This document shows, piece by piece, positions 3,379-28,672 of a stretch of DNA of 29,261 nucleotides; within the stretch, counting starts at the first letter, position 1, and the number at the start of each line of letters is the position of its first letter. The DNA lies in the IMG/VR virus record IMGVR_UViG_3300025131_000286, positions 1 to 29,261 of that record; one strand, 5' to 3'. The DNA is from a virus. The notes under the pieces were generated by a model. The model was not told where the DNA came from. It did not search any database and saw nothing but the letters and a program-made list of their open reading frames with translations. The translations under genes were made by a program, and so were the position numbers.

Positions 3379-4019
3379 AACAAATTCCAATTAAAAATAT
3401 AGCGTTACTTAAGAGATTAGATTATCTAGCACAAAGCTTGTATAGATATCCGCATACTTGGGAGGGGTTGCCAAAGCAAGACCTTTCGTATAGTACCTTA
3501 AGAAGCTATCAAACAGACGATGACTTTGTAGGTTATCCTAAAGAACACAACTATAGAGACTATAGTGGGTTGAACAGAGAGAGATTAGCAACAGTAAATG
3601 GAGCTGATTTTAATAGTATGAAAACTTGGTTTATGCAACTTTTCCGTGGCGGAATAGATGGAGCTAAATCACCAGAGTGGTATTACGATACTCTTACAGT
3701 TATGGCTCCAGACAAGGGGTTTACTGGCTGGCACAATAGTAAAAATAAGCCACGTCACTCTTTAAGATTTATTCATAACAATGGTCGCGGATACTCAGTT
3801 GCAGTACGAAATAAAGTAGTAACTAAAGTACCTGATCAATGGGGAATAAGACGAGGAGCAGGCGACTGGACTTGTGTAAGAAATGATTTTGATGGTGAGA
3901 CATGGTTTGCAGATAAAAATCAAGGCAGTAAGCCTAGATTTGTAGTAGATGTATCTATCCCAAGACACTTAGGAGAGAAAGCAGACGCGGTTGAAGAAAT
4001 AATCAAACAGTTTGCTTAA
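3375..4019 (+). CDS. Possible cupin/2OG-oxygenase-like protein, 214 aa
   Basis: The function is not established. The middle of the protein has KGFTGWHNSKNKPRHSLRFI then NNGRGYSVAV, and the end has SKPRFVVDVSIPRHL. This resembles a family in marine phages with a GWH-TN motif, a following beta-sheet and a late Arg, which I associate with a double-stranded beta-helix (cupin/2OG) fold. H120 after GW and R188 could correspond to the metal-binding and 2OG-binding positions, but I see no clear distal histidine, so it may not be catalytic. It starts in an ATGA overlap with the lipoprotein gene and ends in a TAATG overlap with the ParB-like gene, and so leads the enzyme operon at 3375-7346. Confidence 0.4.
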   Translation: MKQIPIKNIALLKRLDYLAQSLYRYPHTWEGLPKQDLSYSTLRSYQTDDDFVGYPKEHNYRDYSGLNRERLATVNGADFNSMKTWFMQLFRGGIDGAKSPEWYYDTLTVMAPDKGFTGWHNSKNKPRHSLRFIHNNGRGYSVAVRNKVVTKVPDQWGIRRGAGDWTCVRNDFDGETWFADKNQGSKPRFVVDVSIPRHLGEKADAVEEIIKQFA

Positions 4020-4447
4020 TGTACCTAGAAAGTAAAGTTAGAGATTTACAGGTCGCGTACTTTGATCACGACTTACATATAAAAACAAAGATTGTTAGGA
4101 AGACAGCGCTAATAGATATAGCAAGTGCAGTACTACCTTCAGTAGATTATAAAACTTTATGGAAAGACATCTCTTATAATGGAATGAGAGATCCAATTAT
4201 AATTATAACTAATACAGTGCCGAATTATTATTTAGCTATGAGAAACATAACACCAGACTTAATATTACCCTTCGATCCTAACCGCCAATACTTGGCATAT
4301 ACAGGAAACCAGAGAATCGCATTGGCAGAGTGGAAAAACTTTGAACATATAAGTACGATAGAAATGCCAGATGTGCATTGGGCACACGCGGCACATTTAA
4401 AATTACAAGACGGAGCAGTAGATTGTCGTGATACACGAAATATCTAA
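4019..4447 (+). CDS. ParB/sulfiredoxin-fold protein
   Basis: The 142-residue protein has the order typical of ParB N-terminal domains: a segment with SYNGMRDPIIIITN (compare the 'x-x-G-x-x-x-P-I-x-V' strand), then YLAYTGNQRIALAEWKNFEH, matching the G-N/H-R-R/I-x-A box, then a short strand (ISTIEM). In ParB and related enzymes this box binds nucleotides; in phages the domain occurs in nucleases and modification proteins. No helix-turn-helix is present, so it is not a partition protein. A second family member lies at 20550-21122. The start overlaps the previous stop by one base. Confidence 0.6.
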   Translation: MYLESKVRDLQVAYFDHDLHIKTKIVRKTALIDIASAVLPSVDYKTLWKDISYNGMRDPIIIITNTVPNYYLAMRNITPDLILPFDPNRQYLAYTGNQRIALAEWKNFEHISTIEMPDVHWAHAAHLKLQDGAVDCRDTRNI

Positions 4448-4973
4448 CATAAAACCTTTTCTAGATTTGTGCGACAAAGCAACTAAATTTATGTCGCCAC
4501 AAAGAGCATGGCTATATCCTAGAGCAGACTCTTATCTGTTCTATTCTTTAGCACAGGCTCCGCCCTACATATGTTCCGCTCCGTTCTGGAAGGAACTACG
4601 AGAGGATATTTTTACTGAATTAAGAACAGTATTAAATAAACCTACTATCTATTATCTATCTTTAGTAGTACATAATGAAAGAAGTTTTCATATGCCTACA
4701 GGAATGTCTTGCCCAAGTAACCATCTTTATCTACCTTTAACAAAAGGCGGAAGTGTAATTAAAACTGAAAACGACAGAGATTTATCTTTCTTTTCTGCCT
4801 GTAAAGATATAGGTATGCATGCCCCAGAGCTAGTACCAAACTGGCAAGAGCGTGGAAAAATGTGGAGAAAGTTAGAGCAGTATCAAGCCATACTAGTAGG
4901 AAATACAAGTTTAATAACGATACTTCCAGAGCCTGATACTATTTATTTCCATGCGGAGTATAGAGATGATTAA
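4428..4973 (+). CDS. Hypothetical protein, 181 aa
   Basis: This gene starts with GTG at 4428, overlaps the ParB-like gene by 20 nt and overlaps the glycosyltransferase start by 8 nt. The sequence is aromatic-rich with no membrane segment (AWLYPRADSYLFYSLAQAPP, YYLSLVVHNERSFHMPTGM). The gene's placement inside a tightly coupled operon suggests it works with the glycosyltransferase or the ParB-like protein. I see no motif that fixes a family. Confidence 0.7.
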   Translation: MIHEISNIKPFLDLCDKATKFMSPQRAWLYPRADSYLFYSLAQAPPYICSAPFWKELREDIFTELRTVLNKPTIYYLSLVVHNERSFHMPTGMSCPSNHLYLPLTKGGSVIKTENDRDLSFFSACKDIGMHAPELVPNWQERGKMWRKLEQYQAILVGNTSLITILPEPDTIYFHAEYRDD

Positions 4974-5760
4974 GATATTCATTGGCGCAGGAGATGGAGA
5001 AGATAAATGGATAGAGCAGATTCTACTCTATACACTATTTAAAAATACAAAAGAAAAATTAGATATTACATTTCTAAGACCCAGTAAATTTCCAGATTGG
5101 AGAAGAAATGGGTGGGGAACTCCCTTTACTTGTTTTAGATATGCAATACCTGAATTATGTAATTTTAAAGGTAAAGCAATATATCTTGATGTTGACCAAA
5201 TGAACTTTAAAGATATAGCAGAACTATATGAAACAGATTTAAATTATAATGCATTTGGTATGGTATGGGACGGATTACACGACAATGGAACTTCTTGGGC
5301 GCAAACAGAATATGCTAAAGGTTGGTTTTGTGATAGTGTATTGTTGATTGATTGTGAAAGAGCAAAAGAACACATACTACCTATTGACAGAATTAAAGCC
5401 TTTGCAAATAATTATAAACATACCTTTATAAATGGTATGGGGTGTCCACACAAAGAGAAAGTAGAAGGTATAATTAAAGAATTAAATCCTAGATGGAACT
5501 CTTTTGATGGTAGAGATACTTCATGGTTTCACCCGAGTATTATGCCGTATGATGGTACTGGAAATATAGACCATGACGGAATACCACAGTTTGAAATTGA
5601 TGAAATTTGTCATTTACATTTTACAAGTTTAAGTAGTCAACCTTGGCACCCCATATACACGCCTTGGGGTAAGGTTAGTTATCCTAGAGATGATATAGCA
5701 GAACTTTTATGGGACGCTGCAATAAAATGTAAGATGATATCCAATCCTGAGGAGCTCTAG
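4966..5760 (+). CDS. GT8-like glycosyltransferase
   Basis: The 264-residue protein (start at ATG 4966, with GGAG about 9 nt upstream) has a GT-A fold pattern. It opens with IKIFIGAGDGED, continues with PFTCFRYAIPEL, and has the metal/nucleotide-sugar DxD motif in AIYLDVDQMN (D75 and D77). Near the C-terminus HLHFTSLSSQPWHP resembles the H-F-x-G-x-x-K-P-W signature of family GT8. It should transfer a sugar from a nucleotide-sugar; acceptors could be lipopolysaccharide, protein or modified DNA. It lies directly before two oxygenase genes. A longer frame from ATG 4951 adds five residues without a better ribosome binding site. Confidence 0.75.
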   Translation: MIKIFIGAGDGEDKWIEQILLYTLFKNTKEKLDITFLRPSKFPDWRRNGWGTPFTCFRYAIPELCNFKGKAIYLDVDQMNFKDIAELYETDLNYNAFGMVWDGLHDNGTSWAQTEYAKGWFCDSVLLIDCERAKEHILPIDRIKAFANNYKHTFINGMGCPHKEKVEGIIKELNPRWNSFDGRDTSWFHPSIMPYDGTGNIDHDGIPQFEIDEICHLHFTSLSSQPWHPIYTPWGKVSYPRDDIAELLWDAAIKCKMISNPEEL

Positions 5761-6254
5761 TGAAGGTAGCAGTCTATGAAAATGCTTTAGACTTAGAGGT
5801 ATATCGTGCCTGTATAAAGTCATTGAAAACCCATGTACCAACACCTGGCGTAGTAGGTAAGTCATTAAATGAAGCTAGAGTAGATGATGCTAGAATTGCA
5901 GATGTTAGATATTTAAAAGATACTATGACTACCGAACTATTGTCTGATTTTATGAAAGAACCCTATGGAGACTTAACAGCAGAACCCCTACAAGTTATAA
6001 CATATGGCGTAGGTGGTAACTACAAGTGGCATGTAGACGGAAGCGGAGAAGGATATAGAAAGTATACTTTTGTTTCAGTATTATCTCCCAAAGATCAGTA
6101 TAAAGGTGGTGAGTTAGAAATTGATGGGATTACATTACCAGAGTGTGCATTTGATCCTTTTTCTATTATTATTTTTAACCCAGCATTAAGACACAGGGTA
6201 AAGCCTGTAACAGAAGGAGTAAGACATTCCTTAGTAACTTGGTTTCATAAATGA
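5760..6254 (+). CDS. 2OG-Fe(II) oxygenase, prolyl-4-hydroxylase-like
   Basis: The 164-residue protein has the full facial triad: H91 and D93 in YKWHVDG, H145 in PALRHRVKPV, and the 2OG-binding R155 in GVRHSLVTW, with the usual KGGELEIDG strand between. These enzymes hydroxylate protein, small-molecule or nucleic-acid substrates using oxygen and 2-oxoglutarate. The C-terminal order and spacing are those of P4Hc/PKHD-type enzymes. The gene starts with GTG at 5760, overlapping the glycosyltransferase stop by one base, and ends in ATGA with the next gene. The substrate cannot be told from sequence. Confidence 0.88.
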   Translation: MKVAVYENALDLEVYRACIKSLKTHVPTPGVVGKSLNEARVDDARIADVRYLKDTMTTELLSDFMKEPYGDLTAEPLQVITYGVGGNYKWHVDGSGEGYRKYTFVSVLSPKDQYKGGELEIDGITLPECAFDPFSIIIFNPALRHRVKPVTEGVRHSLVTWFHK

Positions 6255-6985
6255 GTATACCATTTGAACAATTATTACCTTTTCCTATAGAGAGATTTGA
6301 AAAAGAATTTAGAGATAAGAAATACTTTATAGTAAAAAGTGATAAACCAATCTTCCAAGACCACTTTAGTTGGAAAGAATTCGACATGTATTTAAACAGT
6401 CATAAATTAAGTGGTTGGGATAGAATGCCGCAGTTACAAATAGTAACTAGCAATGGCAAGTATTGTCATAGAAAAAAGCAGTTTCAACAAGGCTCTAAGA
6501 TGATAAAAAATAAAGTATTAACCAGAGAAGAAATATTTGACCTCTGGAATCAGGGAAACAGTTTTGTTCTTTCTCTTTGCGAGTTCCTAAATAAAACAAT
6601 GTGGAATCAATGCAAAGAGTTTGAAAAATATTGGGGCATTGGACAAGCAAATTTATACTGTTCAGGTCGTAAAGACGCACAGTGCTTTCCAGTCCATGCA
6701 GATAGTACGGATAACTTTCTTTTCCATGTAAGAGGAAGCGTACGTTGGTACATATATAATGAGTTCTCATATGAGTGTAGAAAAGAAGATATCACCCTTA
6801 ATGAGGTGGTTGATTTAGACGAAGGAGACTTATTATACTTACCAAAAAAACTTTATCATAAGGTAGAAACCTTAAGCCCAAGAATATCAATTTCGTATCA
6901 TTTTAGGGAGCCAGCAGGCAAACCCTATAAGAGAGCAGAATGGTATGATTGGATCGGAGAGATAAGTAATGGCACAACCGAGTGA
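6251..6985 (+). CDS. JmjC/cupin-type oxygenase
   Basis: The 244-residue protein shows a JmjC (YcfD/Cupin_4 or Cupin_8-like) core. GQANLYCSGR is followed by FPVHADSTDNFLFHVRGSVR, giving H149 and D151 of the iron site, then DLDEGDLLYLPKKLYHKVE with the distal H203. The 'phVRGSxRW' and 'GDxLYxPxxxxH' phrases are characteristic of ribosomal oxygenases of the YcfD/MINA group and small-molecule JmjC enzymes. It follows a glycosyltransferase and another oxygenase in one overlapping operon. As YcfD hydroxylates a ribosomal protein, a ribosome or translation target is conceivable, but this is inference. Confidence 0.82.
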   Translation: MSIPFEQLLPFPIERFEKEFRDKKYFIVKSDKPIFQDHFSWKEFDMYLNSHKLSGWDRMPQLQIVTSNGKYCHRKKQFQQGSKMIKNKVLTREEIFDLWNQGNSFVLSLCEFLNKTMWNQCKEFEKYWGIGQANLYCSGRKDAQCFPVHADSTDNFLFHVRGSVRWYIYNEFSYECRKEDITLNEVVDLDEGDLLYLPKKLYHKVETLSPRISISYHFREPAGKPYKRAEWYDWIGEISNGTTE

Positions 6986-7974: not shown

Positions 7975-8167
7975 ACTAATTGGTATACTAGACGATCAGA
8001 ATATGCAAACTATGACACAAAGAACTATGCTACGGATAAACCTTCAGAAGCAACAGAAAGAAGCTGAAGAGCAAATAACTGTACTCGAAGGAAAACTAGC
8101 AAGGACAAAAGAATATTTAGCAAAAATCGAGGGTGGAATAGATGTACTCGATGAGCTAGATAAGTGA
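7961..8167 (+). CDS. Small coiled-coil protein, 68 aa
   Basis: Nearly the whole protein after residue 20 is a heptad-rich helix (INLQKQQKEAEEQITVLEGK, LARTKEYLAKIEGG). It probably dimerises or serves as an accessory subunit. It overlaps its upstream neighbour by 14 nt and ends 1-4 nt into the GTG start of the oxygenase at 8164, so translation is coupled. No specific function can be assigned. Confidence 0.65.
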   Translation: MEKPELIGILDDQNMQTMTQRTMLRINLQKQQKEAEEQITVLEGKLARTKEYLAKIEGGIDVLDELDK

Positions 8168-8778
8168 TCCATATAGTTGATGACTTTTATAGTAACCCAG
8201 ACGCAGTCCGACAGGAAGCTCTTGGGTTAAACTTTATTGAAGGCATAAATATTAAGAAGAAGCGAGCACATACAGGTGTTCGAGCCAAAAACCCTAACTA
8301 TGCTAATATGGTTTATCTTCGGAATAGATTACAGTCTATAGTAGGAAAAATAGTAGACTTTAATCACCATACGAGTAATGGATCTTTTAACTTAGGTTAT
8401 AAGAAATCACATTACTTTAATTGGATTCACGGAGACCATACTAAAGATAGAGGAACCATAGACGGATTCTGGGCAGCAGTTATATATCTCACTCCTAATC
8501 CCCCATCAAATTCTGGAACAATTTTAGTAGAACAAACGAGAACACAAACTACTAAACAGTACCAAAATGATTCAGCAATAATAGGCCCCGCCTTTAGAGA
8601 GAATTTTTTCGAGGCAGGATTAGACGAGTGGAAGCCACATACTATAGTAGAAAATAGATACAATAGATGCCTTATTTTTAAAGGTACATATTTTCACGCC
8701 CCTACAGTTTCTAGCTTTGGTCATAACAAGGAGACAGGAAGATTAACCCAAGTAGCATTTTTTGAGACAGAAACATGA
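8164..8778 (+). CDS. 2OG-Fe(II) oxygenase-like protein, DUF6445 type
   Basis: The 204-residue protein starts with GTG at 8164: MIHIVDDFYSNPDAVRQEAL is the typical opening of DUF6445-like phage and bacterial oxygenases. The iron ligands are visible as H89 and D91 in NWIHGDHT and H178 in GTYFHAPT, with R193 in GRLTQVAFF at the 2OG-binding position. The strand IYLTPNPP lies between. The family is linked to hydroxylation of protein or small-molecule substrates, though specific reactions are mostly unknown. The stop overlaps the next ATG. Confidence 0.75.
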   Translation: MIHIVDDFYSNPDAVRQEALGLNFIEGINIKKKRAHTGVRAKNPNYANMVYLRNRLQSIVGKIVDFNHHTSNGSFNLGYKKSHYFNWIHGDHTKDRGTIDGFWAAVIYLTPNPPSNSGTILVEQTRTQTTKQYQNDSAIIGPAFRENFFEAGLDEWKPHTIVENRYNRCLIFKGTYFHAPTVSSFGHNKETGRLTQVAFFETET

Positions 8779-11733: not shown

Positions 11734-11772
11734 AAAATAGTTCTTGACATCGCCCCCAAATTTTAGTATAAT
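11734..11772 (+). promoter_or_regulatory. Promoter of ligase N-terminal gene, leaderless
   Basis: TTGACA at 11744-11749 and TATAAT at 11767-11772 have a 17-bp spacer ending TTTTAG and the upstream block AAAATAGTTC. The ligase ATG at 11779 is exactly 7 nt past the -10. Confidence 0.88.
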
Positions 11773-11778
11773 ATATAC

Positions 11779-12729
11779 ATGAATAGAGATTTGGAAGCAT
11801 ATTTAAGCAAATGTCGCGATCAATACTATCGCGGTACACCCATCATTCCTGATGAGGTGTATGACAGGATAGTAGAAAATACGGCTGGCGAATTTAAAGT
11901 GGGACACGAAGCAGACACACGTTTTGCTCACCCATTCCAAATGTATTCACTTCAAAAAGTCTTTTCAAACGAAGACACACCCCCTGATTATCAAAATAAA
12001 GCAGTAGTTGCCACTCCTAAACTGGACGGCGCAGCTGTGTCTATTTGTTATGTAGATGGTATTTACCATGACGCATTAACTAGGGGAGATGGTAAGTACG
12101 GAATTGATATAAGTAATAAAATGAAGCATATTGCTCCGAGAGCTCTTAGTATGGGTAAAACATTATTCTCTGGTCTTAGACAGATTACAGGTGAAATTGT
12201 TGCTCCCAAGACTATTAAAAATGCTAGAAATTACGCCTCAGGCGCACTTAACCTTAAAGATGTAGAGGAGTTTAAAAGACGAGATTTGACCCTAGTGGTG
12301 TATGGGATTCACCCCCATGTCGGAGAATACTGGGCTCAGGATATGAAAATGTTAGACAACTGGTTTAATGTTATTACAATGGGCGACTACAATGAGTTTC
12401 CACAAGACGGAACGGTGTTCCGCGTAGATAAATACTCATTTTTCAATGACTTCGGGCATACTTCCCACCACCCTAGAGGAGCATATGCTCTGAAAACAAG
12501 AGAGAAAGGAATAGTTACAAAACTACTTGATGTAGTATGGAACACAGGAAAGAGTGGAGTAGTAGCTCCAACAGCTATTCTTGAACCTATTGAAATTGGA
12601 GGAGCTAATATCTCAAGAGCTACCTTACACAATATTGGATTTATAAATCAAATGGAATTAGAAATTGGGTGTAATGTAGAAGTTATTAGAAGTGGGGAAA
12701 TTATCCCTAGAATTGTGAGGAGAGTATAA
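11779..12729 (+). CDS. ligA: NAD-dependent DNA ligase, N-terminal part (adenylation and OB)
   Basis: The 316-residue protein covers the nucleotidyltransferase and OB-fold parts of a bacterial LigA. The N-terminal helical Ia-like region (PIIPDEVYDRIVEN) comes first, then TPKLDGAAVSICY with the AMP-accepting lysine K81, then LTRGDGKYGIDIS, GEIVAPK, GVVAPTAILEPIEIGGANIS, RATLHN and IRSGEIIPRIV. It stops where a full-length ligase would continue into its zinc finger. Those missing domains are encoded 3.5 kb away at 16193-16966. Ligase seals nicks in replicating DNA. The message is probably leaderless, and the last base of the stop is the first base of the next ATG. Confidence 0.93.
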   Translation: MNRDLEAYLSKCRDQYYRGTPIIPDEVYDRIVENTAGEFKVGHEADTRFAHPFQMYSLQKVFSNEDTPPDYQNKAVVATPKLDGAAVSICYVDGIYHDALTRGDGKYGIDISNKMKHIAPRALSMGKTLFSGLRQITGEIVAPKTIKNARNYASGALNLKDVEEFKRRDLTLVVYGIHPHVGEYWAQDMKMLDNWFNVITMGDYNEFPQDGTVFRVDKYSFFNDFGHTSHHPRGAYALKTREKGIVTKLLDVVWNTGKSGVVAPTAILEPIEIGGANISRATLHNIGFINQMELEIGCNVEVIRSGEIIPRIVRRV

Positions 12730-12911
12730 TGTTATTGTATTTAGAATCCCAGCTTCATGCAGCGTATAAAGTGTATTGTGATAAAATACCTGAAGGCAAT
12801 GAAGTAATGGACATAGATGCCTTTAGAGACACCATAGAACTAGACGAAGAATGGTTCGAAGGGTTACTCGAAGAGTACGAAGACAACAGTACAAAATTCA
12901 CGGTTCACTAA
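12729..12911 (+). CDS. Small acidic protein, 60 aa
   Basis: The protein is MLLYLESQLHAAYKVYCDKI followed by an acidic helical tail (MDIDAFRDTIELDEEWFEGL). It is bracketed by one-base overlaps with the ligase gene and the GIY-YIG-like gene, so it is translated as part of the operon. The 'QL-x-AAYK-x-Y' opening is similar to small proteins seen in other marine phages without known function. Confidence 0.65.
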   Translation: MLLYLESQLHAAYKVYCDKIPEGNEVMDIDAFRDTIELDEEWFEGLLEEYEDNSTKFTVH

Positions 12912-13291
12912 TGGCTGGCGGAATATATAATGAAACATACTTCAAAAACTACCCCGAAGAAAAAGAGGTAGACGGAGTATTATACGGAGTTATTCTAGTC
13001 AATAAAAAGACTTTTGAAAGAGAGTGCATTAAAGTTGGAATCGCTAAAGGTAAGGACTGGCGTCATGTAGTTAAAAGGAGCGGAGGGTTCAAGGGGTATG
13101 ACCTTAGGATTCAGCGTACCTATGCTAGTACACTTTATGAGGTGTATCAGTATGAGCAAAGACTACATAAAGCATTTGAAAAAGATAGTTATAAACCGAA
13201 ACAAAAGTTCGGAGGACACACCGAGTGTTTTACTATTGATAGTGATATTTTGAAAGCGTTTCCAGATAGAGAAGGGTTAATTTGGGTATGA
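12911..13291 (+). CDS. GIY-YIG/T5orf172-like nuclease candidate
   Basis: I start at ATG 12911, sharing a base with the preceding stop, not at the upstream in-frame codon at 12851, which would overlap fully coding sequence. The 126-residue protein has VLYGVILVNKKTF, CIKVGIAKGKDWR, a helix with YEVYQYEQRLHKAFEKD and a closing FGGHTECFTID. This is the layout of the T5orf172/GIY-YIG-type fold: G-V/Y strand, K-V/I-G strand with following Arg, E in EQ-x-LH-x-xF, and a terminal T-E-C/W-F. It probably cuts DNA; catalytic residues are less clear than in classical GIY-YIG enzymes. Confidence 0.65.
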   Translation: MAGGIYNETYFKNYPEEKEVDGVLYGVILVNKKTFERECIKVGIAKGKDWRHVVKRSGGFKGYDLRIQRTYASTLYEVYQYEQRLHKAFEKDSYKPKQKFGGHTECFTIDSDILKAFPDREGLIWV

Positions 13292-13854
13292 TTATAGAAC
13301 ACGGAATAAGATTTAATATAATAGGCATTGAGAAAGGCTTTTGGTCAGTTGACCAATGCAATGATATGATTAGAGAACATCAAGATAAGTTTGTACCCTT
13401 TTCTTCTACAAAAATGCAGAATCATGGGGCTGCAGAACAACCCCGTAATTATCCTATTGAGTCTAATAGGGCTAAAGTTAAGTCCGTACCTGATGATATT
13501 CACCAATTAGTTAGAGAATACAATAGAAATAGTTATAATTTTGCACTATCTGATGAGACCACTCAGTATATAAATAGGCTTACTCCTAGTGAGGATTTAA
13601 ATTGGCACAAAGACAATTTAGAAGAAATAGAAACTTTATATACTAAAAGAGCCCCTTATCGTATTAGTTGTGTAGTATATCTTAATAACAAATTTGAAGG
13701 CGGAGCAACAGAAATATACAGGTATAAACCTTTTAATCTAAATACAGGAGATGCCCTGTTATTTTGTTGTGATATGTGGCATAGGAGTACCCCTGTAACA
13801 AAAGGAGTAAAGTTCTCATTCAATATGTGGACACGAGGAGTACCTTTTCGATGA
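13288..13854 (+). CDS. 2OG-Fe(II) oxygenase, prolyl-hydroxylase-like
   Basis: Start at ATG 13288, in an ATGA overlap. The 188-residue protein carries H107 and D109 in LNWHKDNLE, the strand YRISCVVYLN and GGATEIY, and H165 in CDMWHRSTPV. At the usual 2OG-binding arginine the sequence reads GVKFSFNMW with Lys175, a conservative but uncommon substitution. It immediately precedes the carbamoyltransferase and may supply a hydroxyl group for carbamoylation. That link is inferred from gene order. Confidence 0.85.
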   Translation: MIIEHGIRFNIIGIEKGFWSVDQCNDMIREHQDKFVPFSSTKMQNHGAAEQPRNYPIESNRAKVKSVPDDIHQLVREYNRNSYNFALSDETTQYINRLTPSEDLNWHKDNLEEIETLYTKRAPYRISCVVYLNNKFEGGATEIYRYKPFNLNTGDALLFCCDMWHRSTPVTKGVKFSFNMWTRGVPFR

Positions 13855-15224
13855 AAATAGTTGGAATTAGTGAGGGATTTCATGACGCTTCCGCTTCTTT
13901 AGTGGAAGTTTCTCCCTATACAGATGAAGTAAGTATTCTCGAAGCACACCACGCAGAAAGGTTTACTGGAAAGAAGAACGATCCAGTCCTCCCAGAATTT
14001 TTACGATATCCACACGCAGATGTCTCCGTTTTTTACGAAGATACTGAACTTAAGAACCAACGTAGAGCAGATCAAAACATGTCTCTCACAAAATATGAGA
14101 ATAGGTGTTCATACCATTTAAGACATCATGAAAGTCATGCAGCAGCAGCGTATTATACTGCGCCTTTTGATGATGATATTGTTATAGTTGTAATTGATGC
14201 TATTGGAGAGTGGGACTGTTCAAGTATTTGGGTTCCGAGAAACGGAAAATTAGAATGTGTCAGCAACTGGAAATACCCACATAGTATCGGACTATTCTAC
14301 AGTGCTATAACGAAGCGTATTGGATTGAAACCAAACGAAGATGAATACATTACTATGGGTATGGCGGCTTATGGAGAACCAAAGCTAAACATGAGATGGA
14401 TGTTTGACCTACCAGATAAAAATTGGCACAGGGGAATACCTCTAGTATACTTTCAAGGACAGGCTCCTGAAGATATAGCGGCAAGTGCACAGCTAGAGAT
14501 AGAGAGACAGATTACACAAGTAATGAATGTAGCACAAAACTACGGAAAGAATCTTTGTTATGGAGGCGGAGTAGCTTTAAACTGTGTGGCTAATAGTAAG
14601 ATATTACCTAGCAGATTTAACAAGACATGGATATTTCCTAATCCAGGCGATGCAGGAAGTAGTTTAGGAGCGGCACTAGGTTATCTAGGACGCAAAGTTG
14701 AATATAAACATTGTTTTTGGGGTAATGAAATAGTAGGTTCACCTAACCCAAGAAGAATAGTAGATTATCTACTTTTAAATAAAGTAGTAGGAGTAGCAAA
14801 TGGAAAAACAGAATTTGGACCTAGAGCTTTGGGCAATCGTTCTCTGCTCGGTGATGTGCGGTATGATATTAAACGCACAGTTAATCGTATTAAAAGACGA
14901 CAGAAGTTCCGCCCTTTTGCCCCCGCAATCTTGGAGGAGTATTTTGATGACTACTTTGAAGGAGAGAAAAACGAATTTATGCAATACACCTGTAAAGCCA
15001 AGCATGACTACAAATCAGTCACGCATGTTGATGGTAGCGCAAGAGTTCAGGTCGTAACTAAAGACAACCCTTCAATCCTAAGAAAGATACTAGAAAATTA
15101 TTATGAAAGAACTGGAATACCAATGTTATTAAATACAAGTCTAAATGTGAAAGGAAAGCCTATGGTTAATGATGGCGTGCAGGCAGATGAGTTTAGAAAA
15201 TTAACAGGAGTACATGTATTTTGA
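13851..15224 (+). CDS. NodU/TobZ-family O-carbamoyltransferase
   Basis: Start at ATG 13851, overlapping the oxygenase stop; 457 residues, shorter than the ~570 of TobZ. The Kae1-like N-terminal domain has ISEGFHDASASLVE, the metal-binding HHESHAAAAYY (H92-H96 region) and YGGGVALNCVANSK (about 237-250) with NPGDAGSSLGAALGY. The C-terminal carbamoyl-transfer domain has EFGPRALGNRSLL (321-333) and KFRPFAPAILEE, ending with LLNTSLNVKGKPM. It should move a carbamoyl group from carbamoyl phosphate, through an adenylate, to a hydroxyl. Related enzymes act on antibiotics and Nod factors, and phage versions have been linked to DNA hypermodification. Confidence 0.93.
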   Translation: MKIVGISEGFHDASASLVEVSPYTDEVSILEAHHAERFTGKKNDPVLPEFLRYPHADVSVFYEDTELKNQRRADQNMSLTKYENRCSYHLRHHESHAAAAYYTAPFDDDIVIVVIDAIGEWDCSSIWVPRNGKLECVSNWKYPHSIGLFYSAITKRIGLKPNEDEYITMGMAAYGEPKLNMRWMFDLPDKNWHRGIPLVYFQGQAPEDIAASAQLEIERQITQVMNVAQNYGKNLCYGGGVALNCVANSKILPSRFNKTWIFPNPGDAGSSLGAALGYLGRKVEYKHCFWGNEIVGSPNPRRIVDYLLLNKVVGVANGKTEFGPRALGNRSLLGDVRYDIKRTVNRIKRRQKFRPFAPAILEEYFDDYFEGEKNEFMQYTCKAKHDYKSVTHVDGSARVQVVTKDNPSILRKILENYYERTGIPMLLNTSLNVKGKPMVNDGVQADEFRKLTGVHVF

Positions 15225-16009
15225 TTTACTTTAATGGTTGCAGTTTTGTTAATGGTTTTGAACTTAAAGATAAGTACAGGACTCGTTTTTCTGCTATTGT
15301 TGCTAAAGAATTAGGGCAAGAGGAAGATAATGACGCTAAAGTAGGAGGCTCTAATGATAGGATTTGGAGAACTACTATGAATCATTGTTTAACTAATAAA
15401 TACGATTTAGTAGTTATAATGTGGACAGGTATAAATAGACTAGAATACTTAGAGACTACAGAAAATACCTCGGGCAACAAATATAAACCTACCCACCAAT
15501 TACAAAACCCTAGATGGAGATGTACTAATTGGGAAGATTTTGCACTATCTCATAGAACCTTAGAGATTGATAGAGAAACCACAAACTTATTTCATCACCC
15601 TGATTTATCTGATCATCATTATTACTATTTAAATGGTTATATGAAGGAAATAAGAAACATAAAACATAACCTAAAGTATACAATACAGTATATGCTTTCA
15701 ACAAAATACTTTTTAGAACAATTAGATATTCCTTATCTATTTTATACATTTTCTAGTGGACAGTACAAGCCTTTCTTGTATTTGCTAGATGAGGACTATT
15801 TAGAAGCCACCAACAACTACTGGGATTCTGTAGAATTAAGTAAAAAACAGATCGTAAAAGAACTTCCTTGCCTAGAGGAGGACGGGTTTTATGACATAAC
15901 CACAAAACACAAGTTACCTTTAGGCAAGAAAGACCACCCATTAGAAGAAGCACATAGCTTAATGGCGGCAAAGATATTACAGGACATAAAACACAATGAA
16001 ATATATTAA
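15221..16009 (+). CDS. SGNH/GDSL-like hydrolase
   Basis: The gene uses a TTG start overlapping the carbamoyltransferase stop, with AGGAG 11 nt upstream. The 262-residue protein begins MIYFNGCSFVNGFEL, matching block I with the nucleophile serine (G-C-S). KVGGSNDRIWRT matches the block II/III 'G-x-N' region, VVIMWTGINRLEY the central strand, and KDHPLEEAHSLMA block V with the D-x-x-H-like His. Such proteins deacetylate or hydrolyse esters on sugars; phage ones are common and mostly uncharacterised. It continues the insert between the two ligase genes. Confidence 0.75.
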   Translation: MIYFNGCSFVNGFELKDKYRTRFSAIVAKELGQEEDNDAKVGGSNDRIWRTTMNHCLTNKYDLVVIMWTGINRLEYLETTENTSGNKYKPTHQLQNPRWRCTNWEDFALSHRTLEIDRETTNLFHHPDLSDHHYYYLNGYMKEIRNIKHNLKYTIQYMLSTKYFLEQLDIPYLFYTFSSGQYKPFLYLLDEDYLEATNNYWDSVELSKKQIVKELPCLEEDGFYDITTKHKLPLGKKDHPLEEAHSLMAAKILQDIKHNEIY

Positions 16010-16121
16010 AAAAATTATCAAGCGAATCAAAATTTTGTACTTCGAGTATAAGCTACGCAAAACTTACAAGGAAGATACCTATGTCTATGAAGACGAAGAA
16101 AATTTTAATCTCAAAAAATAA
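15996..16121 (+). CDS. Small lysine-rich protein, 41 aa
   Basis: The frame overlaps the SGNH gene's 3' end by 14 nt. MKYIKKIIKRIKILYFEYKL is a basic amphipathic helix followed by an acidic tail (YKEDTYVYEDEENF). A charge-segregated mini-protein of this kind could bind membrane or nucleic acid. The overlap style matches the window's other genes. No family is recognised. Confidence 0.55.
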   Translation: MKYIKKIIKRIKILYFEYKLRKTYKEDTYVYEDEENFNLKK

Positions 16122-16142: not shown

Positions 16143-16171
16143 TTGACACACGGTGAAATTTTTAGTATAAT
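16143..16171 (+). promoter_or_regulatory. Promoter of ligase C-terminal gene
   Basis: TTGACA at 16143-16148 and TATAAT at 16166-16171 have a 17-bp spacer ending ATTTTTAG. The upstream block here is AAAAAATC in place of AATAGTTC. A 6-codon upstream frame (16183-16203, MKKNEN) overlaps the ATG at 16193 and stops 4 nt before the alternative ATG at 16208, so initiation may be coupled. Confidence 0.82.
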
Positions 16172-16192: not shown

Positions 16193-16966
16193 ATGAGAAT
16201 TGAGCGAATGGAACAAATTTTAGCCCCAACGAACTGCCCCTCTTGCGATAGCGATTTAGAGTTTATTAACGAACTACTTTACTGCTTTAACAAGATGTGT
16301 CCAGCTCAATGGGACAAAAAATTACAACACTTCGCCTCATCTTTGAAAATAAAGGGGCTAGGCCCTTCAACTATTAAAAAGTTGGATCTCCTAGATTATC
16401 CAGAACTTTATGAGCTATCTGTCGGGGAGATTACCGTCAGACTGGGCTCTGAAAAATTGGCAACCAAGTTGGTAAACGAGATAGAAAAATCTAAAACAAC
16501 TGATCTTCAAACCTTATTACCAAGTTTTGCTATACCGCTTTTTGGTCGGTCAGCTTCTCAGAAATTATGCGAAAAAATAACTTCTATCGAAGAGGTTTCC
16601 GAAGCAAGCTGTACTGAAGCAGGTATCGGTCCGAAAGCAACATCTAATCTATTGAATTGGTTAGATACCGAGTTTTATGCAAATGAGTACGACAAACTAT
16701 TACCTTTTACTTTCAAATCTAAGAAAGTTGTAAAACGAGATATAATAGGAACTGTCTGTATTTCGGGCAGACTCAAGAGTTTCCCTAGCAAAGCTCATGC
16801 ACAAAAAGTTCTAGAAAACCACGGCTATGCCGTAAAAACCAGTCTGACAAAGGACTGCACTTATTTAATAAATGAGAGTGGAATAGAGTCAGCCAAAACG
16901 CAGACTGCTCGGGAACGAGGAGTCATTATTATTAACAACTTAAACCAATTTATAGAGGAAAAATAA
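16193..16966 (+). CDS. NAD-dependent DNA ligase, C-terminal part (zinc finger, HhH, BRCT)
   Basis: This 257-residue protein supplies the domains missing from the ligase gene at 11779. The Cys4 zinc finger is ILAPTNCPSC then LLYCFNKMCPAQW with C15, C18, C31 and C36, the LigA arrangement. The helix-hairpin-helix repeats (about 45-165) include LKIKGLGPSTIKKLD and IPLFGRSASQKL. The C-terminus (about 182-257) is a BRCT domain (GTVCISGRLKSFPSKAHAQK through a short linker to LTKDCTYLI). It should bind DNA and complete the ligase in trans. It has its own promoter. ATG 16208 is an alternative start that would still retain the finger. Confidence 0.92.
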   Translation: MRIERMEQILAPTNCPSCDSDLEFINELLYCFNKMCPAQWDKKLQHFASSLKIKGLGPSTIKKLDLLDYPELYELSVGEITVRLGSEKLATKLVNEIEKSKTTDLQTLLPSFAIPLFGRSASQKLCEKITSIEEVSEASCTEAGIGPKATSNLLNWLDTEFYANEYDKLLPFTFKSKKVVKRDIIGTVCISGRLKSFPSKAHAQKVLENHGYAVKTSLTKDCTYLINESGIESAKTQTARERGVIIINNLNQFIEEK

Positions 16967-22021: not shown

Positions 22022-22227
22022 GACGATGGTATCAAATACTGTGGGGAAGCAGAAAAGAAGAAGAACTTGAGGAAAAGGTCTATGCAGACGCTGATCCTGA
22101 CGATTTAACAATAGAGAACGCATATAAGACTAGATGGATATGGTATCATACTATCCTAGCAGGACTTATGTTTTTTGCTAATATGATTATGTTAGCTATA
22201 TTTTTATTACTGGCGATTAAATTATGA
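22018..22227 (+). CDS. Single-span membrane protein, 69 aa
   Basis: It begins with an aromatic basic N-terminus (MRRWYQILWGSRKEEELEEK), then an acidic stretch, then a C-terminal hydrophobic segment (YHTILAGLMFFANMIMLAIF). ATGA overlaps on both sides place it between the primase and a nuclease candidate. It might tether replication proteins to the membrane; that is inference only. Confidence 0.65.
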   Translation: MRRWYQILWGSRKEEELEEKVYADADPDDLTIENAYKTRWIWYHTILAGLMFFANMIMLAIFLLLAIKL

Positions 22228-22766
22228 ACTTAGATTACGAAATAGAATTAAGAGATGCTATCTTCGGATTGCATACTCGTAGATTCGGCACAGTTGCCGA
22301 GATTATGGTTAAAAAGATAATTAACGGAGCTATGAGCAAACAGTTAAATTATGATCTTTTTGACAAAATTAACAATGTCAGAGTAGAGTGTAAGTTTTCA
22401 CGAGTACAAAGATCACATACTGTGAAAATAACGGAACAGAATGTTCTAAAGGCTTTACAGTTTGAAAGTGATAGGCATATCTTGTTCGCAGAACGAGAAG
22501 ATTATGATTGGGACAGTAATATTCAGCAAGTGAAGAAGTCTGAATTTGACCAATTATTTTACGGAGTATTCTTCTCTGATCTTATAGTGATATTTAAAAT
22601 AGACGCTGATGAGATAGGAGAAAATGTTAATTACTCCGACAAACAACACAGGGGAAATACTGGAGAAGGACAGTTCCATTTGAACAACAAGAATATCCAG
22701 TATCATTTAAAAAACCACTTATATAAGTATATAAGTTATAACGAGTTACAAGAATGGCTACAATAG
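22224..22766 (+). CDS. PD-(D/E)XK nuclease candidate, restriction-enzyme-like
   Basis: The 180-residue protein has an N-terminal helical region (TRRFGTVAEIMVKKII), then YDLFDKINNVRVECKFSRVQ, in which the D of DLFD and the E-C-K of VECKFS fit the D...E-x-K active site. The C-terminal HRGNTGEGQFHLNNKNI region resembles type II restriction endonuclease-like sequences. It lies between primase and polymerase, so a role in host DNA breakdown or recombination is plausible. I cannot name a specific family. Confidence 0.55.
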   Translation: MNLDYEIELRDAIFGLHTRRFGTVAEIMVKKIINGAMSKQLNYDLFDKINNVRVECKFSRVQRSHTVKITEQNVLKALQFESDRHILFAEREDYDWDSNIQQVKKSEFDQLFYGVFFSDLIVIFKIDADEIGENVNYSDKQHRGNTGEGQFHLNNKNIQYHLKNHLYKYISYNELQEWLQ

Positions 22767-25171: not shown

Positions 25172-25813
25172 ATGAGAAAAATAGGTATTACAGGTCATAC
25201 AAGCGGAATAGGTAAAGAAATCTATGACCATTGTATGTTCAAAGGATATGAAGTTTATGGGTATAGTAGAGCTACAGGCTTTAATATGGCGAACGACGAA
25301 GCAAATGATATTATCAATGATATTTTGAGAAAAGATTTAGATTATGTCTTTAATAATGCATGGTTTCCTAGACTTCAAAGTAAGATTTTAAAAGTATTAC
25401 ACACTCAATGGAGAGACAGAGAAGGTAAGTATATAATCAATACTGGATCTGGAAGTATATATCAACCTGGCTTAACAGGGGAGATATACGAACATGATAA
25501 AAAAGAATTAAGAGACTATTGTCTTGAGGCTGGTAGTAAGTGGCCTTACGATAATAAATGCAGAATCTTTAATGTTAGTCTCGGTTGGGTAAACACAGCA
25601 TTAGTAGATAAGAATGAGAACTTTCTCGATCCGTACGAAGCGGCACTAATAATGACGAACTTAATGGAAGAACAGAATTATATAATTCCTGAAATTGTAG
25701 TATCTAATAAACAGATTCCTAGAAAGGACATTGATAAAGTAGTTGAGCAAGCAGCAGATAGAATGGTTGAATCAATTACACAAAGTAACCGATCTGCAAA
25801 TGCTAGTAAATGA
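25172..25813 (+). CDS. Short-chain dehydrogenase/reductase-like protein
   Basis: An AGGAGAGG site (25161-25168) supports ATG 25172. The 213-residue protein opens with KIGITGHTSGIGKEIYDH, the T-G-x3-G-x-G cofactor motif (7-14). YVFNNAW corresponds to the NNAG motif, TGSGSIY to the catalytic Ser strand, and YEHDK (Y106, K110) to the Y-x3-K pair. These are the hallmark SDR features for NAD(P)-dependent oxidation or reduction. It is slightly shorter than classical SDRs (~250). Its location among auxiliary enzymes suggests sugar or small-molecule metabolism, with the substrate unknown. Confidence 0.82.
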   Translation: MRKIGITGHTSGIGKEIYDHCMFKGYEVYGYSRATGFNMANDEANDIINDILRKDLDYVFNNAWFPRLQSKILKVLHTQWRDREGKYIINTGSGSIYQPGLTGEIYEHDKKELRDYCLEAGSKWPYDNKCRIFNVSLGWVNTALVDKNENFLDPYEAALIMTNLMEEQNYIIPEIVVSNKQIPRKDIDKVVEQAADRMVESITQSNRSANASK

Positions 25814-26420
25814 AGCTAGATTAGGGTTTGTTCACATACCTCGAACAGGTGGAACAAGTGTTGAACGAGCTCTTGCAGTAAAGTATAGAAGTGCTACGGC
25901 AATGGTCAATCCGCAGCCAATGAAACAAGCTATACAAAAGACGACTACAGTCACTCATGGTACTAAAGAACTTCAGAAGAAGCACGCTACGTACCATGAG
26001 ATGATTCAGTTTTATCCTGACTATAAGTATTATACTGTAGTAAGACACCCTCAAGCAAGGTTTGAGAGTATCTACCGCTTCTTTGTATGGACTAACTTAG
26101 TACATACACCTTTTGAGGAGTGGGTTTACCGTATGATATATGGGTTAATGTATGATGTACCTAATACAGTAGTAGATAATGAACCGTATTTAGTGGATAT
26201 GAATTTTCCACATTTACAAGTAGACTTTATAGGTAAAGCAGAAGTACATAAGCTAGAAGAACAAACGATTTGGGAAGCATTAAATATTCAGCCTCGGCAT
26301 GACTTTAGTGTTCCCAATAATACTTACAGACCAATAAAATGGAGCAAAGATAGTATAAAACTGATGGAAAAATTCTATCAGAAAGACTATGAGATATTAA
26401 ATTATGATAGAAACAGTTAA
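25800..26420 (+). CDS. Sulfotransferase-like P-loop protein
   Basis: I start at ATG 25800 (206 residues), in a 14-nt overlap with the SDR stop; a longer TTG frame to 25743 lies inside SDR coding sequence. LGFVHIPRTGGTSVERAL (P-loop-like 5' PAPS site at 13-20) and YYTVVRHPQARFESIYRFF (3' phosphate site, R82, S90) are the two Sulfotransfer_2 signatures. The C-terminus FYQKDYEILNYD matches the usual ending. It should transfer sulfate from PAPS to a glycan or small molecule. A truncated relative lies at 10223-10579. Confidence 0.8.
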   Translation: MLVNEARLGFVHIPRTGGTSVERALAVKYRSATAMVNPQPMKQAIQKTTTVTHGTKELQKKHATYHEMIQFYPDYKYYTVVRHPQARFESIYRFFVWTNLVHTPFEEWVYRMIYGLMYDVPNTVVDNEPYLVDMNFPHLQVDFIGKAEVHKLEEQTIWEALNIQPRHDFSVPNNTYRPIKWSKDSIKLMEKFYQKDYEILNYDRNS

Positions 26421-26586
26421 AAAACATATAAACAAAATCATGGTATTATTTTGTATAATAGGCATGATATTAGCCCCCGACAATCCTTCATTCGCAGTAA
26501 TGTGCTTATGCCTTATTGCAGTAATGCTTAAGATAGGCGGGAAACATTTAAATGATGCAGTATTAAAATGGTGGATTAGCAGATGA
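26404..26586 (+). CDS. Small membrane protein, 60 aa
   Basis: The frame overlaps the sulfotransferase by 17 nt and ends in an ATGA overlap. It has two hydrophobic stretches (IMVLFCIIGMILA and FAVMCLCLIAVMLKIGG) with a short PDNPS turn, so it is probably a helical hairpin in the membrane. No function can be assigned. Confidence 0.55.
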   Translation: MIETVKKHINKIMVLFCIIGMILAPDNPSFAVMCLCLIAVMLKIGGKHLNDAVLKWWISR

Positions 26587-27374
26587 TTATGACATCTGAG
26601 GAAATTGCGGAGCAAGTAGCAAGTGCAGATCCTAGAACTAATGCTTATATGCCTCTTAGTGCTGGTGTAGAAAGCACAGCTACACTATTATACGCAGTAA
26701 AAGACCCAGAGATATTTCCGTGGTGTGTACATTGGTACGAACCACGCTATAGAGGGTTTGCTGATGCAATGGCTTTTTATAGTAGAAAACAAGCTGAGTA
26801 CTTTGGTTTACCGTATGGAAACGATACCAGTATGCTTTCTACTATAGGACACACTAGAGAAGTTCCAATTATTATAAATGGATTGAGTGCTTTTATGCAA
26901 TGTGTAATTGGTAGTCCAGGTAAGTTTAAATTCAAGTGGTTTATGATGGGCGGTAATGCTGAAGATGATATGCGTATGCGTTTACAATTCAGAGAATACC
27001 GTAAAATTATGATAAACTATCTAAGTGATTGTTTAGACACATCTGGAGTGCATTTACCTGCAATCCAAGAAGTACCAGAGATAAGAAATCCATTAGATTT
27101 TATGTCTAAAGCAGAGATGCTTTCTTTGATAATGAGAGTTGATCCAAAGTTATATGAAATGATTTGGTATTGTATCTTTCCTCAAGGAACATTACATGGA
27201 AAAGATAATGAGATTACTGGTTATATTCCATGTGGAAAATGCTATAAGTGTGGAGAATTTCAAAACGCTAATAAACTAGCAAAAGACGCTGTATTTAGAT
27301 ACCAAGAAGGAAAAGAATATTATACTAGATTTTTTGATATAGAGCAAAAGATAGGGAAAGATTCAGTTGGATAG
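26583..27374 (+). CDS. queC: QueC-like PP-loop ATPase
   Basis: The 263-residue protein carries a PP-loop at MPLSAGVESTATLLYA, where the usual SGGxDS reads SAGVES. FMMGGNAEDDMRMRLQFREY resembles the 'G-x-N-x-x-D' segment and NPLDFMSKAEML the 'P-L-x-x-x-x-K-x-x-I/L' region. The C-terminal zinc site is IWYCIFPQG (C197) with PCGKCYKCGEF (C217, C220, C223), the QueC arrangement. QueC makes preQ0, the precursor of queuosine and of 7-deazaguanine DNA modification in some phages. No QueD, QueE or transglycosylase is visible nearby. The changed PP-loop leaves room for another adenylating reaction. Confidence 0.65.
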   Translation: MIMTSEEIAEQVASADPRTNAYMPLSAGVESTATLLYAVKDPEIFPWCVHWYEPRYRGFADAMAFYSRKQAEYFGLPYGNDTSMLSTIGHTREVPIIINGLSAFMQCVIGSPGKFKFKWFMMGGNAEDDMRMRLQFREYRKIMINYLSDCLDTSGVHLPAIQEVPEIRNPLDFMSKAEMLSLIMRVDPKLYEMIWYCIFPQGTLHGKDNEITGYIPCGKCYKCGEFQNANKLAKDAVFRYQEGKEYYTRFFDIEQKIGKDSVG

Positions 27375-27987
27375 TAATATAACTTGGGAAATACATCAAG
27401 GCTTCCTAGAGAAAGAAACTTGCGATCTTCTAGAACAACATTTTGAATTTCAGAAAGAAAATGGAAGATGTCATTATGGAGACATTAACGGAGTTAGACA
27501 AGGAAAATCCTTTGATCTATACGGAGATAGCTTTTGTGAAGCTATAGGAGTATATAAAGCTCCTATTATAAGTAAACAAATGGGGATAGATTTAAGTCTT
27601 ACTTATGGAATTATGAGAGAGTATCAAAGGGGCGCAGTCCTTAAATACCATAGAGATCGTTGGCAATGTGAGTATTCCGCGACTATACAAATAAGTGAAG
27701 GGGTATGGCCTATACATTTTGCAGAACCATACCTTGGAGGTAAATGGGAACCATCTGCCTCAGTAATTTTACAAAGAGGAGATGCTCTATTCTTTAAAGG
27801 ACATGAGACTTTTCATGGCAGAGATGCCTTAAAACATGAAACATCTAGGCATCTATTTTTACATTATGTTGAAAAGAATAGTCCCTTAGATATGAAAGAT
27901 AACAGACCAGGTTATGGAATGTTAAACACACAAGATAAACAGACTAGGCTACGGGCTGTTTATAGAAATGCAGGCGAAGCAAAATAA
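27367..27987 (+). CDS. 2OG-Fe(II) oxygenase-like protein
   Basis: The gene starts with TTG at 27367, overlapping the QueC-like gene. The 206-residue protein has MREYQRGAVLKYHRDRWQ with H95 and D97, YSATIQISEGVWPIHFAEP, GDALFFKGHETFHGRDAL with H150, and SRHLFLHYV with R161, the full iron and 2OG set. The G-D-A-L-x-F and G-R elements are standard for phytanoyl- and P4H-type families. It follows the QueC-like enzyme closely and may act on its product or on an associated substrate; this is inferred from position only. Confidence 0.82.
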   Translation: MDSNITWEIHQGFLEKETCDLLEQHFEFQKENGRCHYGDINGVRQGKSFDLYGDSFCEAIGVYKAPIISKQMGIDLSLTYGIMREYQRGAVLKYHRDRWQCEYSATIQISEGVWPIHFAEPYLGGKWEPSASVILQRGDALFFKGHETFHGRDALKHETSRHLFLHYVEKNSPLDMKDNRPGYGMLNTQDKQTRLRAVYRNAGEAK

Positions 27988-28003: not shown

Positions 28004-28672
28004 ATGAAACAGCAGCACATTATAAAGATACCTAGAGGCAAAGAGCGACAAGCTATAAAGATTAAAGAAGAGCATAGTGATAGTATCATTAAAGAGATTA
28101 GACACTTTTGCGATTTAACAAAAGCAGAGTGGCATGCAATAGTTGAACAACGAATAAATCAATTCGTAGTATGGAATAAACGTATTATGAACCCAGTAGA
28201 TGAGCATGATGAAGATGCTCATTTTATAATGATTTGGGAAAATGAAGGTGGCATGGGGTATAAAAAATTACTAGGTTGTACTAGAGTTTGTCTTCCCTTT
28301 AGTCATAACTATGTAAATGTAGAAACAGGTGAGCAGTACGGTTATCCAGTATGGGATAAATGTACAATAGTAGATATGCGAATATCTATGTTCCCTACAC
28401 CAAAATCTAAAGCAGTATGTCATATGTGGGCTCCTGAATGGGGATTAAAGATTACAGGTACACAAAATGGCATGATGGATATGTATGCAGACGGACACCC
28501 AATACTCCTAGCACATGCAAAACACGAACCAAACTTACACTTTATTGGGGAGCATATTGATAACTGGGGATATAAAGGTTACAGATGGGTTTACGAACCT
28601 GAAAATAGAAAAGAATCGGAGAAAATTTTATCACATTGGCTAATGGATTATGACCAATATGACTGGACATAG
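28004..28672 (+). CDS. Hypothetical protein, 222 aa
   Basis: An AGAGGA site precedes ATG 28004. The N-terminus is basic and helical. The middle (EDAHFIMIWENEGGMGY, KLLGCTRVCLPFSH) resembles the strand-turn region of acyltransferase-like folds such as GNAT or LuxI, but no conserved residues confirm it. The C-terminal half is rich in W, H and Y (KAVCHMWAPEWGLKITG, GYKGYRWVYEPENRK). Family unknown; the GNAT/LuxI resemblance is weak. Confidence 0.65.
   Translation: MKQQHIIKIPRGKERQAIKIKEEHSDSIIKEIRHFCDLTKAEWHAIVEQRINQFVVWNKRIMNPVDEHDEDAHFIMIWENEGGMGYKKLLGCTRVCLPFSHNYVNVETGEQYGYPVWDKCTIVDMRISMFPTPKSKAVCHMWAPEWGLKITGTQNGMMDMYADGHPILLAHAKHEPNLHFIGEHIDNWGYKGYRWVYEPENRKESEKILSHWLMDYDQYDWT

Follow-up and report, generated by a model that had tools for sequence, protein, structure and literature searches.

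An O-carbamoyltransferase gene coupled to an SGNH-type hydrolase gene in marine T5-like phages and in bacteria

What does an O-carbamoyltransferase (CT) act on when its gene lies among the replication genes of a phage? The window analyzed here, a linear IMG/VR virus fragment of 29,261 bases, raises this question. It holds a T5-like phage replication region in which ligase A, ligase B, a D5-type regulator, a DnaB-type helicase, primase and DNA polymerase A follow one another in the same order as in cultured Demerecviridae, and a 3.4-kb cassette separates the two ligase genes. An initial annotation considered DNA the candidate target of the cassette, with the phage modifying its own DNA and a nuclease cutting DNA that is unmodified.

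All features of the locus lie on the + strand. The gene ligN (ligA; 11779-12729) encodes subunit A of an NAD-dependent DNA ligase, with the adenylation and OB domains (DNA_ligase_aden, 8e-26; OB, 3e-22; phrog_3359, 3e-93), and ligC (ligB; 16193-16966) encodes subunit B, with the zinc finger and BRCT domain (phrog_3498, 2e-57; BRCT and ZBD matches). Between them are six open reading frames with 1- to 14-base overlaps, both ORFs and overlaps being read directly from the sequence: (i) a 60-aa ORF (12729-12911), which overlaps ligN by 1 base (TAATG) and has tblastn matches of 53-61% in relatives but does not convincingly match the small ORF that cultured T5-like phages have at the same site; (ii) a predicted nuclease of the GIY-YIG/T5orf172 type (126 aa; 12911-13291), with a 1-base overlap with the 60-aa ORF; (iii) a 2OG-Fe(II) oxygenase (188 aa; 13288-13854), with a 4-base ATGA overlap with the GIY-YIG gene; (iv) a short-form O-carbamoyltransferase of the NodU/TobZ family (457 aa; 13851-15224), again with a 4-base ATGA overlap; (v) an SGNH/GDSL-type hydrolase with DUF6071 (262 aa; 15221-16009), which has a TTG start and a 4-base overlap with the CT gene; and (vi) a 41-aa ORF (15996-16121) that overlaps the end of the SGNH gene. 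The tight gene overlap described in the initial annotation was thus borne out, and profile searches confirmed the listed nuclease-type, oxygenase, carbamoyltransferase and SGNH genes as real, the GIY-YIG call being weak for the window protein alone. The "ligase halves" of that annotation, on the other hand, do not come from a single gene that the cassette interrupts: T5-like phages normally have a two-subunit ligase.

Perfect (12/12) matches to the sigma-70 consensus occur only before ligN and before ligC. The first of these candidate promoters (11744-11772; TTGACA-17-TATAAT), identified by consensus match only, lies upstream of ligN and the cassette, and the second (16143-16171) lies upstream of ligC. 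With perfect sites at these two positions only, the cassette would be co-transcribed with ligN; it is likely one operon, probably expressed together with ligase subunit A. In two cultured T5-like phages, the ligase subunit genes are separated by one small ORF instead of a cassette of 3.4 kb, and the cassette therefore looks like an insertion characteristic of an uncultured marine clade.

Relatives of the window were found with peptides of its own ligB, an approach by which more distant relatives may be missed. A CT gene lies upstream of ligC in 61/61 relative loci with at least 2.6 kb of upstream sequence; this count does not include the window's own copy, which had been omitted from the protein scan. 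The GIY-YIG, CT and SGNH genes occur in that order in the IMG/VR relatives in which the ligA-ligB interval is covered, and tblastn shows the GIY-YIG gene in L010-L018 and L022. Most relatives have an oxygenase between GIY-YIG and CT; several are without one, and L079 has another oxygenase-like gene in that slot. CT and SGNH have dN/dS values of 0.10-0.22, and the oxygenase has values of 0.18-0.36. The conserved gene order and these dN/dS values argue that the cassette is not a chance arrangement. When the window is compared with its closest relative (L087/L008), CT is 95% and ligC 93% identical, while SGNH (window 15221-16009) is only 72% identical, with a dS of 0.92 vs. 0.20-0.34; this suggests an allele replacement at the SGNH gene.

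The GIY-YIG protein offers one explanation of how such a block could have arisen, namely that it is a free-standing nuclease of the homing type through which the block entered the space between the ligase genes, with the enzymes as passengers of unrelated function. The window protein alone matches T5orf172 with an E-value of 0.0019, which is below the cut-off, and the endonuclease family phrog_681 at 8e-10. Within its ortholog group, T5orf172 is matched by 13 of 16 sequences (best 2.4e-6), and the LY, KVG, R and E positions are invariant. Its structural model (pLDDT 82) has a beta-beta-alpha-beta-alpha order; a Foldseek search with this model returned nothing significant, with a 5hmC-specific nuclease at an E-value of 4. 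Homing would be consistent with the single small ORF at this site in the two cultured phages, as well as with the variable genes that relatives carry between ligN and GIY-YIG, including a QueC-like/GNAT/radical-SAM module that has its counterpart after polA in the window. Moreover, just before CT, L030 has a different GIY-YIG-like ORF (3577-4401, read by eye) that L048 lacks at the corresponding position, the pattern expected of a homing nuclease. However, the GIY-YIG gene is fixed in the clade, not sporadic, its core residues are invariant, and CT-SGNH pairs recur without any such gene; we regard the homing explanation as rather unlikely. The profile of the clade's GIY-YIG protein was found only within the clade and never with a CT outside of it, and the gene probably encodes a separate, clade-specific predicted nuclease that accompanies the locus.

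As for the QueC-like module, the window has a QueC-like PP-loop gene (26583-27374; phrog_1550, a weak match) and a GNAT-like gene (28004-28672) after polA. Together with a radical SAM gene, the module lies after polA in the L079 contig (19605-22472) and inside the ligase interval in L021 (3351-5339), L022 and L085. Between primase and polA, positions 22224-22766 of the window match a PADLOC model of a type II restriction enzyme (5e-10).

The CT of the window is complete; it could be aligned over the solved NovN and GdmN and matched to TobZ. It contains both domains of its family, Carbam_trans N (PF02543; 1.6e-39) and C (PF16861; 6e-46), and matches phrog_1601 (1.6e-79). Its HHxSH, DAxGE, PGDAG, EFGPRALGNR and HVDGSARVQ motifs align with NovN and GdmN and are conserved in relatives, and we take them to be the His-rich metal site and the carbamoyl-adenylate motifs. 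Both domains, these motifs and the canonical HxDGxxRxQ are common to NodU, TobZ, NovN and GdmN. Unlike those enzymes, the window CT is of a short type (about 450-490 aa), which is phage-borne and coupled to a DUF6071 SGNH gene. The Nol-like carbamoyltransferases of T4-like cyanophages and pelagiphages share phrog_1601 with it, but their identity to it is about 25-37% across the aligned portion, and they have another gene neighborhood. A cyanophage homolog has been stated to serve pyrimidine nucleotide synthesis (PMC9146016). Despite this published annotation, such a role is extremely improbable for the window CT, whose domains are Carbam_trans_N/C (NodU/TobZ) and not those of aspartate carbamoyltransferase, and it would leave the SGNH pairing unexplained.

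Is the acceptor, then, DNA? According to the DNA hypermodification and exclusion model, a hydroxylated base of the phage DNA receives an O-carbamoyl group, while unmodified DNA falls to the GIY-YIG nuclease. This model draws on the nuclease-type gene within the same operon, on the position of all cassette genes among replication genes, and on a precedent: a phage-type CT that acts on DNA, converting 5-hydroxymethylcytosine to 5-carbamoyloxymethylcytosine (Yang et al., 2021; PMC8670742). That enzyme and the window CT are both phage-encoded and have their domain family in common. In that study, CTs of modified and unmodified contigs were best told apart by the residues that correspond to W408, G421 and R423 of TobZ (PMC8670742). 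Five DNA-type CTs were aligned (the characterized enzyme, Xp15, two from Acinetobacter phages and one from a Bacteroides phage), and the TobZ numbers were mapped to alignment columns in this analysis by the spacing in EFGPRALGNR. In 5/5 DNA-type CTs, position 423 is threonine and the Arg/Gln motif HxDGxxRxQ is altered, with C or G at position 421. In contrast, Gly421 and Arg423 occur together with the canonical motif (HVDGSARVQ in the window) in the window CT and all of its relatives. G421, R423 and a motif of the type HxD(G/N)(S/T)xRxQ are retained in every phage relative that was compared and does not belong to the DNA-type group. In the tree, a long branch sets the DNA-type CTs apart from the window CT.

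The gene neighborhoods differ as well. A thymidylate-synthase-type or hydroxymethyltransferase gene lies near the annotated DNA-type CTs (thymidylate-synthase-type near CT in Xp15 and in the Bacteroides phage), whereas no such partner was found in the window clade. Hydroxymethylase-type genes (PF00303) are absent from 10/10 clade contigs, of which the largest has 104 kb and spans the replication and structural regions, and the window's own genome is incomplete. A ThyX-type thymidylate synthase (PF02511; 1e-42) is present in one of nine clade contigs (the L070 contig, G008, at 33779-34393). A Tet_JBP search had no match in clade contigs, which carries no weight because it had none in control genomes either, a pattern scan of viral contigs with the 5hmC CT found only one relative, and PADLOC matched the four cassette proteins only through a generic 2OG model. 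That the clade's GIY-YIG gene was not found with a CT outside the clade also argues against the model. None of these sequence-based tests supported DNA as the acceptor, which is not proof against it, and a modification/restriction pair is not supported, as there is no support for a DNA-acting modifier. The initial annotation's scheme of modifying its own DNA and cutting the rest is therefore very unlikely to apply here. Its pairing logic, in which hydroxylation precedes O-carbamoylation, is upheld by the gene families (2OG oxygenase and NodU/TobZ-type CT).

The remaining partner, the SGNH protein, matches DUF6071 (2e-7). Ser8 (block I) and His239 (block V) are invariant in 34 sequences, and the usual triad Asp is not conserved. 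Its AlphaFold model (pLDDT 93) has GDSL acylhydrolases and acetylxylan esterases as its best PDB matches, with E-values of 4e-4 to 2e-3 and TM-scores of about 0.3-0.45. These fold matches and the invariant Ser8 and His239 bear out the earlier proposal of an esterase-type partner. The oxygenase matches 2OG-FeII_Oxy_3 (PF13640; 3e-12, 47.7 bits vs. a cut-off of 27) and phrog_61 (1e-21), and an iron site of HKD and a distal H (HxD...H) can be read from its sequence. PDB sequence searches with SGNH and with the oxygenase returned no matches. Since 2OG genes are very common in these phages, adjacency of the oxygenase alone is weak evidence. Oxygenase or oxygenase-like genes (2OG-FeII_Oxy_3, JmjC_2, DUF6445, phrog_2954) lie in the window at 5760-6254, 6251-6985, 8164-8778, 13288-13854 and 27367-27987.

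For the SGNH gene, adjacency could be counted. A profile seeded from CT neighbors was scanned against the ORFs around 144 CT clusters, and the background was measured in those loci with that very profile. SGNH is the immediate neighbor of CT in 20 of 21 clade clusters. Around other viral CTs, it occupies 33/128 immediate-neighbor slots vs. 11/448 distant slots (p = 7e-15), with an adjacent SGNH missing in about half of these clusters. In cells, it is found in 12/104 CT-neighbor slots vs. 1/287 distant ones (p = 8e-7), and this pairing is confined to the CT subfamily of the window (13/24 vs. 1/27 loci). Phage O-carbamoyltransferases are thus systematically coupled to an SGNH enzyme, and the CT-SGNH gene pair is a recurring one that is common to phages and bacteria. 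The papers searched contained no description of DUF6071, nor of CT-SGNH pairing in phages.

The cellular loci are of more than one kind. Two actinobacterial loci, in which CT and SGNH genes lie together with a 2OG or Asp/Asn hydroxylase gene, are of the NRPS type, one (L120) with AMP-binding, PCP, thioesterase, Asp_Arg_Hydrox and DUF6071, the other (L138) with PCP, aminotransferase, radical SAM and 2OG_3, and the CT of S. parvus adjoins long NRPS-like ORFs (read by eye). Three others (L106, L115, L121) have a glycan-related look, with apparent sugar-nucleotide and glycosyltransferase genes, also read by eye. Among the other neighbors of phage CTs (n = 150), radical SAM is the commonest (18), and GT8, UDP-glucose dehydrogenases and 2OG oxygenases are present too; the 25 families listed do not include thymidylate synthase. 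Looked for as a mobile unit, as the initial annotation had proposed, the whole block was not found elsewhere, but the CT-SGNH pair reappears in phage, NRPS and glycan contexts, in some cases together with a 2OG oxygenase. Amidinotransferase-like ORFs, identified by eye, lie near CT and SGNH in three distant phage contigs (L002, 2585-3904; L026, 3687-4706; L047, 3664-4128), and in L229 (1263-5693, six genes) and L244 (2335-6001) five to six SGNH genes stand in tandem upstream of CT.

Our preferred reading, which we hold with moderate confidence, is that the oxygenase, CT and SGNH constitute a portable O-carbamoylation tailoring module that acts on something other than DNA. Its acceptor would most likely be a sugar or glycan, either attached to the virion or on the host surface, and failing that an amino-acid-derived small molecule. 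We infer the enzyme activities, the reaction order and the acceptor. As an optional first step, suggested by its family, the 2OG-Fe(II) oxygenase would make or expose a hydroxyl. Following the chemistry of its family, CT would then use carbamoyl phosphate and ATP to form a carbamoyl-adenylate, from which the carbamoyl would be passed to the hydroxyl. Finally, SGNH, with its observed fold and Ser/His pair, might either strip off the carbamoyl (or a different ester group) or act as an acyl transferase.

A glycan or sugar acceptor is favored in the phage because the window carries a GT8 glycosyltransferase gene (4951-5760) and a galactose-3-O-sulfotransferase-like gene (25743-26420). No glycosyltransferase or NRPS gene adjoins the three module genes in the window, the GT8 gene being about 7 kb away, and a small-molecule acceptor is almost as plausible. 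The NRPS and glycan contexts, several of which were assigned by eye, do not agree on the kind of acceptor, and the function of SGNH may have nothing to do with carbamoyl chemistry. A comparable set of genes is found in the cyanobacterial sxt cluster, which encodes an O-carbamoyltransferase (sxtI), a hydroxylase (sxtH) and a GDSL protein (sxtL) that has been proposed as a decarbamoylase (PMC2679770; PMC2684587). The paralytic-shellfish-toxin clusters, elsewhere with a sulfotransferase gene, are likened to the phage module by architecture alone, and nothing indicates that the phages make such a toxin.

A more specific form of the tailoring module is possible, though we offer it tentatively: short-form CT and DUF6071 SGNH may be a dedicated O-carbamoyl writer/eraser (or writer/trimmer) pair that serves marine phages as well as bacterial NRPS and glycan pathways. 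Phages would then decorate a glycan or metabolite during infection, and tandem SGNH genes, such as the six in L229, would diversify the decoration.

Marine phages commonly carry CTs, and the roles assigned to these so far are nucleotide synthesis or, in newer work, DNA modification. The residue test separates the DNA-acting phage CTs from the others, and for much of the non-DNA group the SGNH pairing provides a concrete partner and a testable chemistry, as well as a likely role for DUF6071.
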